A model generated the notes under the pieces. That model searched no databases. It was not told where the DNA came from and saw only the letters and a list, made by a program, of their open reading frames with translations. A stretch of 64,000 nucleotides of DNA. Source: Bacteroidota bacterium. GTDB lineage: Bacteria; Bacteroidota; Bacteroidia; Bacteroidales; UBA4417. Both the position numbers and the translations under genes were made by a program. Of this stretch, positions 20,333 through 28,384 are shown piece by piece. Location of the stretch: positions 26,654 to 90,653 of the forward strand of contig JACAAZ010000013.1 of the NCBI GenBank assembly GCA_013376995.1, written 5' to 3'. How positions within the stretch are numbered: position 1 is the stretch's first letter; each line of letters starts with the position of its first letter.

Positions 20333-20359
20333 AGTATAATTTTGACAAAAAAAAATAAG

Positions 20360-21163
20360 ATGGATATAAATCGAATAAAGGTACTAGGTGGAAAGGGCAA
20401 AGAAGGGACAAAAGAAGCCGTCGAAAGTTTCGAATTGAACATGGGAGATATCGTTTCAATCGTTGGACCTACCGGTTGCGGGAAAACAACATTGATCAAT
20501 GATATTGAGTTATTTGCCAACCAAAATACACCGTCTGGCAGACAGGTATTTATTAATGGTGAAACTGTTCCCGAGGATTTTTCCTTTGACCCGGCAAAGC
20601 ATCCAATTGCCATGATTTCTCAGCATACCAACTTCCTCAGCGATCTGCCCGTTGGTGAGTTTCTCAGCATTCATGCCAAGGTAAGAGGTGCAGAGAATAT
20701 TGAACGAATGATTGAAGAGACTCTGGATTTTGCCAACCAATTGACTGGTGAAGCTATTGTCAAAGAGACTGCTATGACTGAGCTTTCAGGTGGGCAGACA
20801 AGATCATTGCTGATTGCTGATGCCGTTGTTATTGGGAATTCTCCAATCATCCTGCTTGACGAAATCGAAAATGCAGGGATTAACAGGACCAAGGCATTAG
20901 AATTATTGAAAGGGTATAAGAAGATCTTCGTTTTCGTGACTCATGATCCATGTATTGCCTTGCTTTCTGATTTTCGTATTATCATGAAAAACGGAGCAAT
21001 GCAGCGTGTTATCTGCACAGGTGTTGAAGAGCGGATTGCCGCAACTGAAATGAAGAAAATGGATGATATCATGCTCGAATTCAGAACCCTTATCAGGTCT
21101 GGACAAGAGATTACTGAAAATATATTAAATGACAAAATGAAAATCTTAACCCAACCTTTATAA
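20360..21163 (+). CDS. Soluble ABC-type ATPase without permease partner
   Basis: The 267-residue nucleotide-binding subunit has a complete motif set: Walker A GPTGCGKT (36-43), Q-loop Gln88, signature LSGGQ (142-146), Walker B IILLDE (163-168) and H-loop His195. The D-loop reads ENAGIN in place of the usual SALD-type sequence. No transmembrane partner is encoded nearby, so it may be a soluble energy module, as SufC is for Fe-S assembly, rather than a transporter. A TTG at 20342 would add six residues; the ATG at 20360 is preferred because 20342 overlaps the promoter box. Its stop codon abuts the ATG of the next gene (TAAATG), implying tight co-translation with the GTPase. Confidence 0.85.
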   Translation: MDINRIKVLGGKGKEGTKEAVESFELNMGDIVSIVGPTGCGKTTLINDIELFANQNTPSGRQVFINGETVPEDFSFDPAKHPIAMISQHTNFLSDLPVGEFLSIHAKVRGAENIERMIEETLDFANQLTGEAIVKETAMTELSGGQTRSLLIADAVVIGNSPIILLDEIENAGINRTKALELLKGYKKIFVFVTHDPCIALLSDFRIIMKNGAMQRVICTGVEERIAATEMKKMDDIMLEFRTLIRSGQEITENILNDKMKILTQPL

Positions 21164-21865
21164 ATGAAACTTATCATATTTGCCGGACCCCCAACTTGTG
21201 GGAAGACAACCGTTATTAAGCAGGTGATCAAACGAATGATTGCCAGGGAACTGAAACCATCCTATATCAAGATAGATGTACTTTATGCTGATGAAGACGA
21301 AGTAATAAAGAACGAATTCGGAATTCCGACCAAGAAGATCTATTCCGGAGAACTCTGCCCTGACCATTGCAATGTTGTTGTGTTGGATGAAGCTGTTGAA
21401 TGGGCTCAAAAGGCAGGATCAGACTTTCTTTTTGTTGAGACCGCAGGGCTCTGCCTGCGTTGTTCTCCATATGTGGAAAATTCTCTTGGTATAGTTGTCC
21501 TTGAGGCAACCAGCGGGATGAATCTGCCAAGAAAGATTGGCCCGATGCTTACACTTGCTGATATCAGTGTAATAACTAAGATCGATCTTATCTCACAGGC
21601 TGAACGTGAGGTGTTCCGCTACAGGGTCCTCGAATCAGCTAAGGGAATTACAGTTGTTGAAAGTAATGCACTGTATGGCATTGGCATTGACCCGATCGTC
21701 AATAAGATCATTAAATCACCGGAGATTGAATTCCCTATGTTCCTCAGAGGAAATCCACCAGTGGGTACATGTACGATCTGTGTTGGGAAAAAAGAAATCG
21801 GAGCCAAAAATCATTTTGGTGTTCTGAGAACAATGGAGCACGAGCTATTTTATGTTGGTGAATAA
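21164..21865 (+). CDS. Cysteine-rich P-loop GTPase, G3E-like (CobW/HypB/UreG type)
   Basis: The 233-residue protein has Walker A GPPTCGKTT at 8-16, a VETAG element at 91-95 and a TKIDL specificity motif at 138-142, resembling the SIMIBI/G3E metallochaperone GTPases. It carries three cysteine pairs unlike the single CxCC of CobW: CPDHC (65, 69), CLRC (97, 100) and CTIC (203, 206), suggesting metal or Fe-S binding near the nucleotide. G3E proteins insert or deliver metals into enzymes; the client here is unknown. The gene starts directly after the ATPase stop codon, and 11 bp separate its end from the desulfurase start. Confidence 0.8.
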   Translation: MKLIIFAGPPTCGKTTVIKQVIKRMIARELKPSYIKIDVLYADEDEVIKNEFGIPTKKIYSGELCPDHCNVVVLDEAVEWAQKAGSDFLFVETAGLCLRCSPYVENSLGIVVLEATSGMNLPRKIGPMLTLADISVITKIDLISQAEREVFRYRVLESAKGITVVESNALYGIGIDPIVNKIIKSPEIEFPMFLRGNPPVGTCTICVGKKEIGAKNHFGVLRTMEHELFYVGE

Positions 21866-21876
21866 TCGTGATTCCG

Positions 21877-23040
21877 ATGAGTAACAGGATTTATCTTGAT
21901 AATGCAGCAACCACTCCAATGGATCCCAGGGTCTGGGAGAGCATGGAGCCCTATTTCTTCGAACACTTCGGAAATGCTTCATCCCTTCACGCTTACGGAG
22001 CCGAATCAAAATCTGCTCTTGCAAATTCAAAAAGAAGAATTGCAGATAGTATTCACGTTCAACCTGAGGAAATAATTTTCACTTCTTCAGGTACGGAAGC
22101 CAATAATCTTGCCCTTAAAGGGTTGGCATATGCAAACCAATCCAAAGGACGCCATATCATTGTTTCGGAAATTGAACACGACTGCATTCTGAATACCTGC
22201 CGATGGTTGCAGGAAACCGGGTACAGGATCAGCTATGCACCTGTCGATAGTGAAGGAATAGTGGATCCCAGTGCAATAGAGCAATTAATACAGAAGGATA
22301 CCATCCTGGTGTCAGTAATGCATGTTAATAACGAAGTTGGAACTATATAACCGATCTCTGATATAGGCCGTATTTGCAGGAAGCAGAATGTTATTTTTCA
22401 CTCAGATGCATGCCAGTCTTTTGGTAAAATTAAAATTGACTGTGAGGAACTGCAAATAGATGCCCTGACCTTGAATGCGCATAAAATATATGGTCCCAAA
22501 GGGATTGGTGCATTGTACCTGAGAAAAGGAATACAAATCACACCATTGTTGCATGGAGGAGGACAGGAGGGAGGGAAAAGATCCTCAACCGAGAATATTC
22601 CCGCAATTGTTGGGTTTGCCAGAGCTGCTGAGATTTGTATGAATGAAATGGCATCAGATTATTCAAAAGCTGTCAAACTTCGGGATCATCTTCTTCATTT
22701 CTTACAGGACAAATATTGTGATGTATATATAAACGGGAGTGCCGAGCATAGGGTACCCTATAACCTGAATTTTAGTATCCATGGGCTGGAGGGGGAAGCT
22801 ATCAGGCTACTTTTATTACTCGACGATGCAGGAATTGCTGTTTCAGCAGGATCAGCCTGTTCATCAAATGACAGATCGAATAATCCTTCCCATGTTCTGA
22901 AAGCGCTTGGTAGAAATCCCTTTGAAGCCAGAGGTGCAATCCGCGTTTCCTTTGGACGATTTAATACGTTGGAAGAAGTGGGAATATTTACCAGAAAAAT
23001 TGAAAATGTAATTGAACAACTAAATCCAATCTTTTCTTAA
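21877..23040 (+). pseudogene. NifS/IscS-like cysteine desulfurase with in-frame TAA at codon 158
   Basis: The frame encodes a PLP enzyme releasing sulfur from cysteine as a persulfide. It starts IYLDNAATTPMDPRV and keeps the PLP Lys203 in LNAHKIYGPKG, the loop Cys328 in SAGSACSS and a normal C-terminus, totalling 387 codons. The only defect is TAA at 22348-22350 in NNEVGTI-stop-PISDIG, where relatives usually have Gln (CAA or CAG), so one C-to-T change explains it. There is no frameshift and no other stop, and both halves look under normal constraint. It could be a sequencing error, a very recent mutation, or recoding; the last is unlikely since TAA ends many genes here. A GTG at 21868 is an alternative start. 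Confidence 0.85.
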
Positions 23041-23054
23041 AAATACGAGCTAAA

Positions 23055-23741
23055 ATGGACATTCTATTAGAAACCAAAACCCTGGATAAATTACCCGGTC
23101 TTGATTGTGGAGCATGCGGTTATCGCACCTGCGGTGAATTTGCTGTTGCTGTTGACCAGGTTGAAACAGAACTGAAAAAGTGCATTCATGTGACTGAGAA
23201 TAAGCAATCAAATTCTGAAAGCAAAAACTGTCTGAATTGCCTGGATATGGAAAACCTGGGTGATAAATTGAAGTGGCAGGATAGTCTGAAGCGGGAATTT
23301 GATTTCATTCTTGACGTAATGGAGGGCGATCCCGGCCCCAGGGAAACCATTCTTCCATATAATCCATTATTGGTAAAGGAACTGGGTGTAAAGCCAGGTG
23401 ATGTTATGATTGGAAGGCCAATGGGAATGTCATGCGGTTGCCCGATTACCCATTGTGGAGTTGTAACCGACGTTGACCCAAGGAATGGTGTTATAAAATG
23501 GTGCGTCACTGGTCCACTAAGGCCAAGGTCGGAAGGGTTCATTGATATAGGCTATTATGTAGCGCAGGCTTATGACGGCATTATTAAGGAATCAAAGGAA
23601 GAAATCAAATTAGGTCGTCGTTACTGGTTCCTTCCCCACAGGTGTATGTTGCAATGGCGGCACAGCGGTTTGGTAAATGCTGTTGTGAAGCAAAAGGATG
23701 GCAGTTACAAGGTGCGGATTGAAGGCCTCTTTATCGGCTAA
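23055..23741 (+). CDS. Cysteine-rich Fe-S protein with N-terminal 4Fe-4S domain (RnfB/ACDS-type)
   Basis: The 228-residue protein has LPGLDCGACGYRTCGEFA at residues 13-30 with Cys18, 21, 26 and 43, the pattern of the FeS domain (Pfam FeS, PF04060) seen in RnfB and acetyl-CoA decarbonylase subunits. A CLNC pair at 59 and 62 follows. The C-terminal half is an unfamiliar domain with a conserved-looking MSCGCPITHCG at 126-135 and Cys150 and Cys197, giving 11 cysteines in all. It lacks membrane segments. I infer an electron-transfer or cluster-scaffold role with the desulfurase, whose gene ends 14 bp upstream. The function has not been established by this reading. Confidence 0.75.
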   Translation: MDILLETKTLDKLPGLDCGACGYRTCGEFAVAVDQVETELKKCIHVTENKQSNSESKNCLNCLDMENLGDKLKWQDSLKREFDFILDVMEGDPGPRETILPYNPLLVKELGVKPGDVMIGRPMGMSCGCPITHCGVVTDVDPRNGVIKWCVTGPLRPRSEGFIDIGYYVAQAYDGIIKESKEEIKLGRRYWFLPHRCMLQWRHSGLVNAVVKQKDGSYKVRIEGLFIG

Positions 23742-23936: not shown

Positions 23937-24776
23937 ATGGATCCATTATCACAATTGCCTAAAGAGATTTTCAGAAGCTACGAACGATATAGTACAGATG
24001 TTCCTTCGGTTGAAAGCACTCACCATTTTGTCGAAGAACTCGTAATGTTCCTGTTTCCAGTTAAAGCTAACAGGACAGTATCGCTGCATTCGCTCCAGAA
24101 GGAATTACGTCATTTGAGATTCAGGCTTGAAGATCTGCTCTTTCCTTTATTCAATGGGTCCGGGCAAGAGATTGAGGGTATCGTTAATTCTTTCTTTTCG
24201 AGCCTTCCATCGGTTTATGAATTACTGCTAAATGATGCTGAGGTTTTCCTGGATTCTGACCCATCAGCAAAAAGAGTCGAAGAGATTCTCATGTCGTATC
24301 CGGGGTTTCATGCAATTACAGTTTATCGGATTGCCCATGAGTTGCAGAAATTGGATGTGCCCTTATTACCCAGGATAATGAGTGAATTCATACATGGAAA
24401 AACAGGTATTGATATTCATCCGGGAGCAATAATTGGAGAGAATTTCTTTATTGATCATGGAACCGGTGTTGTTATAGGCGAAACCTCTGAGATTGGAAAT
24501 AATGTAAAGATATACCAGGGAGTGACCCTGGGAGCACTTTTTGTTGAAAGGGCTTTGAAAGACCAGAAAAGGCATCCAACCATACAGGATGGTGTGATCA
24601 TTTATTCAGGTAGTACGATCCTGGGCGGCAAAACAGTTGTAGGGCATGATTCTATAATTGGGGGAAATGTTTGGTTGACTGAAAGTGTAGAGCCCTATTC
24701 ACTTGTTTATCACAAGCCTGAAATTGTGATCCGGGATAAGAAAGATTTTATTGAGCCGATCAACTTTTATATATAA
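23937..24776 (+). CDS. cysE: Serine O-acetyltransferase (EpsC-type)
   Basis: The enzyme acetylates serine with acetyl-CoA to O-acetylserine, the first committed step of cysteine synthesis. The 279-residue protein has an alpha-helical N-terminal domain and a left-handed hexapeptide helix at about residues 160-245. That helix includes GKTGIDIHPGAIIGENFFIDHGTG and VVIGETSEIGNNVKIYQGVTLGA, a textbook SAT active-site stretch. It is 68 bp upstream of cysK, so both cysteine-synthesis steps are adjacent. Its place beside a desulfurase suggests cysteine made here feeds sulfur to that enzyme. Confidence 0.94.
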   Translation: MDPLSQLPKEIFRSYERYSTDVPSVESTHHFVEELVMFLFPVKANRTVSLHSLQKELRHLRFRLEDLLFPLFNGSGQEIEGIVNSFFSSLPSVYELLLNDAEVFLDSDPSAKRVEEILMSYPGFHAITVYRIAHELQKLDVPLLPRIMSEFIHGKTGIDIHPGAIIGENFFIDHGTGVVIGETSEIGNNVKIYQGVTLGALFVERALKDQKRHPTIQDGVIIYSGSTILGGKTVVGHDSIIGGNVWLTESVEPYSLVYHKPEIVIRDKKDFIEPINFYI

Positions 24777-24844: not shown

Positions 24845-25762
24845 ATGAAAGCAAATTCAATTCTTGAGACCATTGGTAATACACCACATGTTAAGATAAA
24901 TCGATTGTTTGGATCCGATTATCAGGTATGGATTAAATTGGAACGAACCAATCCCGGTGGGAGTATTAAGGACCGTATAGCTTTGGCTATGATTGAGGAT
25001 GCAGAGAAAAAGGGCATACTTAAGGCAGATTCCGTAATAATTGAGCCTACATCGGGCAATACAGGGATTGGCCTTGCTATGGTTGCTGCAGTAAAAGGAT
25101 ATAAACTGCAATTAGTGATGCCAGAATCCATGAGTGTTGAAAGGAGAGCTTTGATGGCCGTTTATGGCGCTGAATTCGTTCTGACCCCCCGGGAAAAAGG
25201 AATGAAAGGCGCTATTGAAAAAGCGAAAGAACTTGTTGAATTAACACCAAAAGCCTGGATGCCAGGACAATTTGAGAATCCTGCCAATCCAGCTATTCAT
25301 TATGAAACAACTGCTAAAGAGATTGCCCAGGATTTCCCGGAAGGCCTGGATTACATAATTACTGGTGTTGGAACAGGAGGGCATATTACAGGAGTCGGTC
25401 GACTGCTCAAAGCCAAATGGCCGAATCTTAAGATTTTTGCAGTTGAGCCGGAACTTTCTCCCGTGCTTGGTGGAGGTTCTCCCGGACCTCACCCATTGCA
25501 AGGAATTGGTGCAGGTTTTGTCCCTGAGAATTTTGACCGTTCCGTAGTTGACGGCATAATTGCAGTATCAAAGGATAAAGCATTTGAATTCGCCAGGAGA
25601 ATTGCTAAGGAAGAAGCAATATTTGCCGGTGTTTCCACAGGTGCTTCTTTAGCAGCTGTTAGTTCAAAGCTAAGCGAAATTCCAAAGGGATCCAGGGTGC
25701 TTACCTTTAATTACGATACGGGTGAGCGTTATCTGTCCATTGATGGTTTGTGGAATAGCTGA
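24845..25762 (+). CDS. cysK: Cysteine synthase (O-acetylserine sulfhydrylase)
   Basis: This PLP enzyme combines O-acetylserine and sulfide to cysteine. The Schiff-base Lys42 lies in NPGGSIKDR, the substrate loop TSGNTG is at 69-74, and the phosphate-binding glycine stretch GTGGHITG and C-terminal GVSTGAS are present. The 305-residue length is normal for CysK/CysM. The C-terminus ([13 protein letters not shown]) matches the family. With the serine acetyltransferase upstream it gives a complete two-step pathway in one unit. Confidence 0.95.
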
Positions 25763-27252: not shown

Positions 27253-27663
27253 CTAGCTGATCAGGTCAAGCAAAGTTGTTTGCTGTAGCTTCATATAAGT
27301 ATAATCACGGATATCCTTGAAAACCTTTTTCATATTGCAGGTGTCCTCGTCTTTGCAAAACTCGCAGGGTTGATATGCCTTTTCTGATACACAGGAAACC
27401 AGAGCAATTGGACCTTCGAAGTGGCGCACCACCTGGGAAAGGTTAATGTCTTCCGGCTTACGGATCAGGTAGTAACCGCCGTTTTTTCCCAATTTACTGC
27501 CCAACATTCCCAGTTTCTTAAGATCCAGCAATATAGCTTCCAGGTATCGCTGAGGGATATTTTCTGTTTTGGCTATTTCACTGATCATGATCGCTCCATT
27601 CCCAACTTCTTTGGCAAGTCGTGTAAGCGCGAGCATTGCGTATCTTGTTTTTTGCGATAACAT
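27253..27663 (-). CDS. Rrf2-family transcriptional regulator with four cysteines
   Basis: The 136-residue protein has a winged-helix N-terminus (SQKTRYAMLALTRLA, ISEIAKTENIPQRYLEAILLDLKKLGMLGSKLG) typical of IscR, CymR and NsrR. The C-terminal region carries Cys91, 100, 103 and 109 (SCVSEKAYQPCEFCKDEDTC). IscR uses three cysteines to hold a 2Fe-2S cluster; four here in a different spacing suggest an Fe-S cluster or thiol sensor. It is probably co-transcribed with the FNR-like gene 22 bp upstream and convergent with the sulfur/Fe-S genes. I infer that it controls the neighbouring units. Confidence 0.9.
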   Translation of the reverse strand: MLSQKTRYAMLALTRLAKEVGNGAIMISEIAKTENIPQRYLEAILLDLKKLGMLGSKLGKNGGYYLIRKPEDINLSQVVRHFEGPIALVSCVSEKAYQPCEFCKDEDTCNMKKVFKDIRDYTYMKLQQTTLLDLIS

Positions 27664-27685: not shown

Positions 27686-28384
27686 TTATCCGTGTTTACT
27701 GATTTCCAGAAGTTTGTTTACATCACATATCTCAAGTGTTTTGCCTTCAAAAGAGATTATTCCTTCCTTATTCATGCGGGATAAGGTGGTTATTACATTT
27801 TCATGAGAACAGGCAGCAAATTCAGCAATTTCTTTCTTGGTGAAAGAGAGGGTGAATTTGTTGGATTTGTATACCTGGGAGGCAAGGTAAAGTAAGATAT
27901 CGGCCACCCGGCCGTTTACCTGCTTATGTGCAAGGCTGATGAAGTTAAAGATTGCGGATTTGAACATTTCCGTGGATTCCTCAAACATCATAATTGCATA
28001 TTTTCCGTTGTTTTGCAGAAGACGCTTCATTGCCTTACTATCGATCAGGCAGGCTTCACATTCTTCTAATGCTATCAAAGAGAAGAGATTCACTTCTTTA
28101 AAAAACAAGTTTGCTCCACCTAATAATATGGGGCCGGAGACGATAGTAAGAATTACACTCTTTCCGGCTTCACTCTCAAAGTTGAACTTCACTATACCTT
28201 TGTGAAGATACACCAGGGTGGATGCTTTAGCTCCCTGCTTCAGGATTGTTTCCCCTTTTTTAAAAAGAAGCTGTTGTGAAGTCCTTCTTACCAGCTCAAA
28301 TTCTTCAGGAGCTATATGGCGGCAACTCATTGTTCTAAAAGTACATGCGTTGCAATCGTAGCGGCTGTGACGGCTATCTGACAT
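27686..28384 (-). CDS. Crp/Fnr-family regulator with FNR-like cysteine cluster
   Basis: The 232-residue protein has a cyclic-nucleotide-type beta-roll (residues about 35-125) and a C-terminal helix-turn-helix (TKKEIAEFAACSHENVITTLSRM). Its N-terminus has Cys11, Cys14 and Cys21 (CNACTFRTMSCRH), close to E. coli FNR C20-x2-C23-x5-C29, and an internal pair Cys109/Cys112 (EECEACLID) where FNR has its fourth ligand. This is the layout of an oxygen-sensitive 4Fe-4S regulator. It lies at the divergent promoter of the PstS-like gene, with the palindrome at 28454 about 70 bp from its start, and is followed by the Rrf2 gene. Confidence 0.87.
   Translation of the reverse strand: MSDSRHSRYDCNACTFRTMSCRHIAPEEFELVRRTSQQLLFKKGETILKQGAKASTLVYLHKGIVKFNFESEAGKSVILTIVSGPILLGGANLFFKEVNLFSLIALEECEACLIDSKAMKRLLQNNGKYAIMMFEESTEMFKSAIFNFISLAHKQVNGRVADILLYLASQVYKSNKFTLSFTKKEIAEFAACSHENVITTLSRMNKEGIISFEGKTLEICDVNKLLEISKHG

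Follow-up and report, generated by a model that had tools for sequence, protein, structure and literature searches.

Closest described systems

The described systems closest to the locus analysed here are the group I cysteine desulfurases of the NifS/IscS type, the SufS desulfurases, the HypB/UreG (G3E) GTPases and, as regards the way in which the gene is broken, ordinary nonsense pseudogenes. In Escherichia coli IscS, Gln183 lies near Asp180 and 23 residues ahead of Lys206. Gln183 is the glutamine that contacts PLP (PMC9978102). Like the NifS/IscS enzymes, the frame at 21877-23040 of the window (i.e., the whole 64-kb stretch of DNA analysed) encodes all of the active-site motifs of the group, and its best matches among solved structures are cysteine desulfurases (1.3e-104); unlike them, it has a stop ahead of the lysine and the cysteine. 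Intact orthologues of the gene pass the NCBIfam model NF002806 for the IscS subfamily (334.9 vs. a cut-off of 304) and score below the equivalog cut-offs for NifS (470.6 vs. 530.75), IscS (408.6 vs. 643.2) and DndA (390.2 vs. 480). An intact orthologue also matches SspA/DndA models, as expected for a desulfurase of group I; no dnd/ssp partners were found beside the desulfurase, its ABC, GTPase, Fe-S and Crp neighbours all lacking a match to them.

SufS is predicted to catalyse the same reaction as a desulfurase of this type and is probably the cell's remaining sulfur donor, but its gene is a different one, intact and located in the sufBCDSE-sufT operon of contig C20, and it is about 30% identical to the broken gene. 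The GTPase encoded upstream of the desulfurase has the P-loop domain of HypB and UreG, scoring 46.7 and 32.7 bits, respectively (far below the curated cut-offs of 121.2 and 204.2 bits), and matches a UreG structure at 1.5e-6; its partners, by contrast, are an ABC-type ATPase, a desulfurase and an Fe-S protein rather than urease or hydrogenase genes. The locus resembles ordinary nonsense pseudogenes in that a redundant gene, intact in other respects, contains one in-frame stop, and it differs from them in nothing, save that its recency is also compatible with an error. The features considered are as follows.

20342-21163, + strand: ABC-type ATPase, cassette gene 1 (PF00005, 3.4e-17); likely true start at codon 7 (ATG)
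21164-21865, + strand: HypB/UreG/CobW-like GTPase, cassette gene 2 (PF02492, 6.3e-11)
21877-23040, + strand: cysteine desulfurase (NifS/IscS type) frame of 387 codons, broken at codon 158 (translation, Pfam, homologues)
22348-22350, + strand: in-frame TAA, codon 158 of the desulfurase frame (translation; whole-genome search)
23055-23741, + strand: protein with an N-terminal Fe-S domain, cassette gene 4 (PF04060, 2.7e-11)
23937-24776, + strand: cysE (best match, but below its cut-off)
24845-25762, + strand: cysK (match above its cut-off)
27253-27663, - strand: Rrf2-family regulator, IscR/CymR-like (TIGR00738, 2.9e-32)
27686-28384, - strand: Crp/Fnr-type regulator (PF13545 and PF00027)

A single in-frame stop in an otherwise intact desulfurase frame

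Translation of the frame gave a class-V aminotransferase/cysteine desulfurase with exactly one internal stop, situated in the motif NNEVGTI*P, and a whole-genome search counted one TAA inside this copy and none in the genome's two other desulfurase-like genes. Both halves of the frame match Pfam Aminotran_5 (1.5e-39 and 2.3e-22), at positions 1-155 and 199-369, with the class-V fold extending over the full length, and the motifs of His101, Asp177, Gln180, Lys203 and Cys328 are all encoded. Chance can be excluded as the source of the frame, because the 229 codons open past the stop are homologous over their full length to intact orthologues. The preliminary description, which had reported a single TAA at codon 158 of a 387-codon cysteine desulfurase with the remaining frame and its motifs (Lys203, Cys328) intact, was thus confirmed on both counts. 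Asp177, Gln180, the PLP lysine Lys203 and the catalytic Cys328 all lie 3' of the stop, leaving no single uninterrupted frame for the active site; as translation would stop before the PLP lysine and the catalytic cysteine, the predicted 157-residue product cannot be a desulfurase.

No second gene interrupted by a stop in its own frame emerged when same-frame extensions were checked across the 64-kb window; the remaining long extensions are accounted for by two adjacent genes and by one overlap with a gene on the opposite strand. No indel damage was seen in the window's other genes, and the assembly is therefore not generally poor.

Codon 158 falls in the motif NNE-x-GT-x-Q. The aligned residue in 40 homologues was Gln in 23, Glu in 16 and Asn in 1, and none of them had a stop at this site, meaning that glutamine is not the near-fixed residue it had been taken for. 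The Gln codons were divided between CAA (12) and CAG (11), the nearest relative (G001) having CAG. Given this variation, the ancestral codon is not fixed: the proposed change of CAA to TAA stands as one possible route among several, not as a certain origin. We also rejected the idea that the stop replaces the catalytic glutamine, as the residue equivalent to the PLP-contacting glutamine of E. coli IscS is Gln180 (in the DACQ motif, 23 residues ahead of Lys203), not codon 158.

The desulfurase belongs to a conserved four-gene cassette

The desulfurase is the third gene of an uncharacterised four-gene cassette comprising an ABC-type ATPase, a HypB/UreG-like GTPase, the desulfurase and an Fe-S protein. 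The cassette was seen in 43 genomes, including the window's own; the 43 other stretches compared below come from 42 genomes, a single genome contributing two. Of 393 genomes sampled evenly across the order, 31 had a match to the GTPase (24 of them of the close type) and about 6% had the cassette; among 395 genomes sampled from the class, the GTPase was matched at E <= 1e-40 in the window's own genome alone. A plasmid search with the cassette's Fe-S protein gave no match, and no description of the cassette was found in the literature searched.

Across many families of the order the GTPase keeps 84-93% identity, far more than the 54-65% of the desulfurase; the ATPase is 69-83% identical in the 42 other cassette genomes, and the Fe-S protein gene is kept downstream of the desulfurase in relatives. 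Of the 43 other stretches, 37 have a homologue of the Crp/Fnr-type regulator near the cassette and 23 have one of the Rrf2 regulator. By contrast, cysE and cysK were found near the cassette in just one, that of the congener G001, and are neighbours rather than conserved members. The cysteine/Fe-S unit in whose midst the gene had been placed is thus a local arrangement.

An intact SufS is encoded elsewhere in the genome

The preliminary description had proposed looking for another nifS or sufS, and had expected loss of the gene to break the pathway. The window's own genome (5.05 Mb in 43 contigs, 96.7% complete) does encode such an enzyme: its class-V enzymes comprise the broken copy and two others without internal stops, and contig C20 carries sufB, sufC, sufD, sufS, sufE and sufT, each with an open frame over the stretch that was read (the start of which cuts sufB). 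The broken desulfurase is therefore not the cell's sole sulfur donor, SufS being intact in a complete suf operon. With this operon present, loss of the desulfurase should not break Fe-S synthesis, and the expectation of a broken pathway did not hold, cysE and cysK also lying outside the conserved unit.

No nitrogenase genes were found in this genome, where the best NifH-family match was weak (4.1e-5, vs. 1e-128 for NifH-like proteins in two relatives), and neither Hcp nor CODH was found. A link of the desulfurase to nitrogenase or to Hcp/CODH was accordingly rejected, and a dedicated nitrogenase role is unlikely given that the genome lacks nitrogenase. As a separate observation, several congeners carry a NifS/IscS-SelD fusion adjoining mnmH, pointing to selenium use (matches of 734-764 aa; e.g., G008, L099:2253-5590); this fusion was not found in the window's genome.

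Loss of the desulfurase in other cassettes

The desulfurase is intact and in place in 37 of the 43 genomes with a close cassette (the window's own counted). In three others it is damaged while the other cassette genes are whole: G793 has a clean deletion of 1,081 bp at the desulfurase relative to its sister G799, with flanks that are 95.6% and 98% identical; in G785 only N- and C-terminal remnants are left; and in G567 the gene is frameshifted near a run of six A, which means that this frameshift could itself be an error. In a further genome, G503, three consecutive genes (GTPase, desulfurase and Fe-S) have each lost an internal segment, and the ATPase is whole (L089:3916-5807); the entire cassette may be decaying there, or the assembly may be at fault. 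Finally, the cassette of G563 consists of the ATPase, the GTPase and a divergent Fe-S gene with no desulfurase, and an intact desulfurase adjoins a normal Fe-S gene elsewhere in the genome (the two places being L123:4434-6293 and L079:264-2666). Because of this intact pair we did not count G563 as a loss; the division of its cassette between two places suggests that the desulfurase and the Fe-S protein work as a pair.

To quantify these differences, we compared the desulfurase, broken in 4 of 42 cassettes (leaving out G503), with the other three genes, broken in 1 of about 123 (Fisher p = 0.015). The single broken gene among the latter is the ATPase of G625, in which a TAA interrupts the frame near codon 31, ahead of the Walker A motif, and an ATG follows closely (L072:4467-5228). 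Without the window itself, 3 of 41 desulfurases were broken (p = 0.049), and comparison with the GTPase alone gave p = 0.12. The genomes are related and hence not fully independent, although the affected ones come from four different families. The excess of desulfurase loss over that of the other cassette genes is modest, and suggestive rather than strong. No desulfurase lies next to the more distant GTPase cassettes (38-44% identity). Among the other desulfurase matches in 60 genomes we found no true internal stops; those flagged in SufS of G019 and G785 were rejected, being natural gene ends.

Age of the stop and competing explanations

A gene long free of selection would show more changes after its stop. 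We found no such excess by any of three measures: among the columns invariant in the other cassette desulfurases, 1 of 54 departs after the stop, equal to the intact copy of G001; the nonsynonymous distance to G001 is the same on either side (0.297 and 0.298); and the two parts show similar lineage-specific change. The stop is thus either recent or an error, as had been proposed, and the data fit both equally. The three alternatives originally offered (a wrong sequence, a recent inactivation, or takeover by a second desulfurase) all remain, except that the last two go together.

We consider it probable that the desulfurase, a dispensable accessory enzyme of the cassette, was recently inactivated by a nonsense mutation. 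A mutation to TAA at codon 158 would end translation after 157 residues, and sulfur for Fe-S clusters would then be supplied by the intact SufS and SufE. The loss would be tolerated because these proteins are intact and because the cassette desulfurase seems optional, having been lost more than once elsewhere while the rest of the cassette was kept. We infer that the organism does carry the mutation and that SufS substitutes for the broken enzyme.

The main rival is an error: the TAA could have arisen in sequencing, in assembly or in a population consensus, or could be a minority allele of a mixed sample, and the organism would then have an intact gene. This seems unlikely, though it deserves to be taken seriously. 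The rest of the frame looks to be under selection, both in its invariant columns and in the equal nonsynonymous distances of its two parts, and most cassettes retain an intact desulfurase, all as an error would predict; however, a very recent real mutation would look identical. Moreover, the window shows no other visible damage, the change is one substitution rather than an indel, and the same gene has been lost in relatives.

Conservation of the whole frame would likewise be expected if the TAA were read as an amino acid (by recoding, readthrough or a suppressor tRNA) to yield a full-length enzyme, or if the desulfurase were made as two pieces, each part being open and conserved. We regard the former as very improbable: TAA is the window's commonest stop, ending 29 of its 54 complete frames, which excludes general recoding and led us to reject a changed genetic code; no tRNA was found in the window, and no relative has a stop at the site. 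Production in two pieces by restarting translation is more improbable still, since the first possible in-frame start past the stop is TTG at codon 199 (22471) and the first ATG is codon 255. Resuming at codon 199 would omit Asp177 and Gln180, and no relative shows such a split; a gene split by restart was accordingly rejected. Recent nonsense inactivation remains our preferred explanation.

Possible role of the cassette

Encoded near Rrf2 and Crp/Fnr-type regulators, the ATPase, G3E-type GTPase, Fe-S protein and sulfur donor fit the assembly or loading of a cofactor, and the cassette may accordingly make or load a metal or Fe-S cofactor. We tentatively propose, with more doubt than confidence, that the cassette and its two regulators represent an undescribed cofactor assembly system with an exchangeable sulfur donor, in which the ATPase, GTPase and Fe-S protein would form the core, and SufS could take the place of an optional desulfurase. 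There is nothing unusual in one nonsense mutation striking a desulfurase that a complete SUF system backs up, and the stop is useful mainly as a pointer to this conserved, unnamed cassette, which merits more attention than the stop itself and of which the desulfurase is the most often lost part. This pattern of loss offers a natural test of whether SufS can feed the system. Among the more distant ATPase-GTPase pairs, those of L090, L093, L094 and L095 adjoin a methyltransferase, an 81-residue zinc-ribbon-like protein and a DUF1858/solute-binding protein, and the pair of L090 also lies near an Hcp-like gene.
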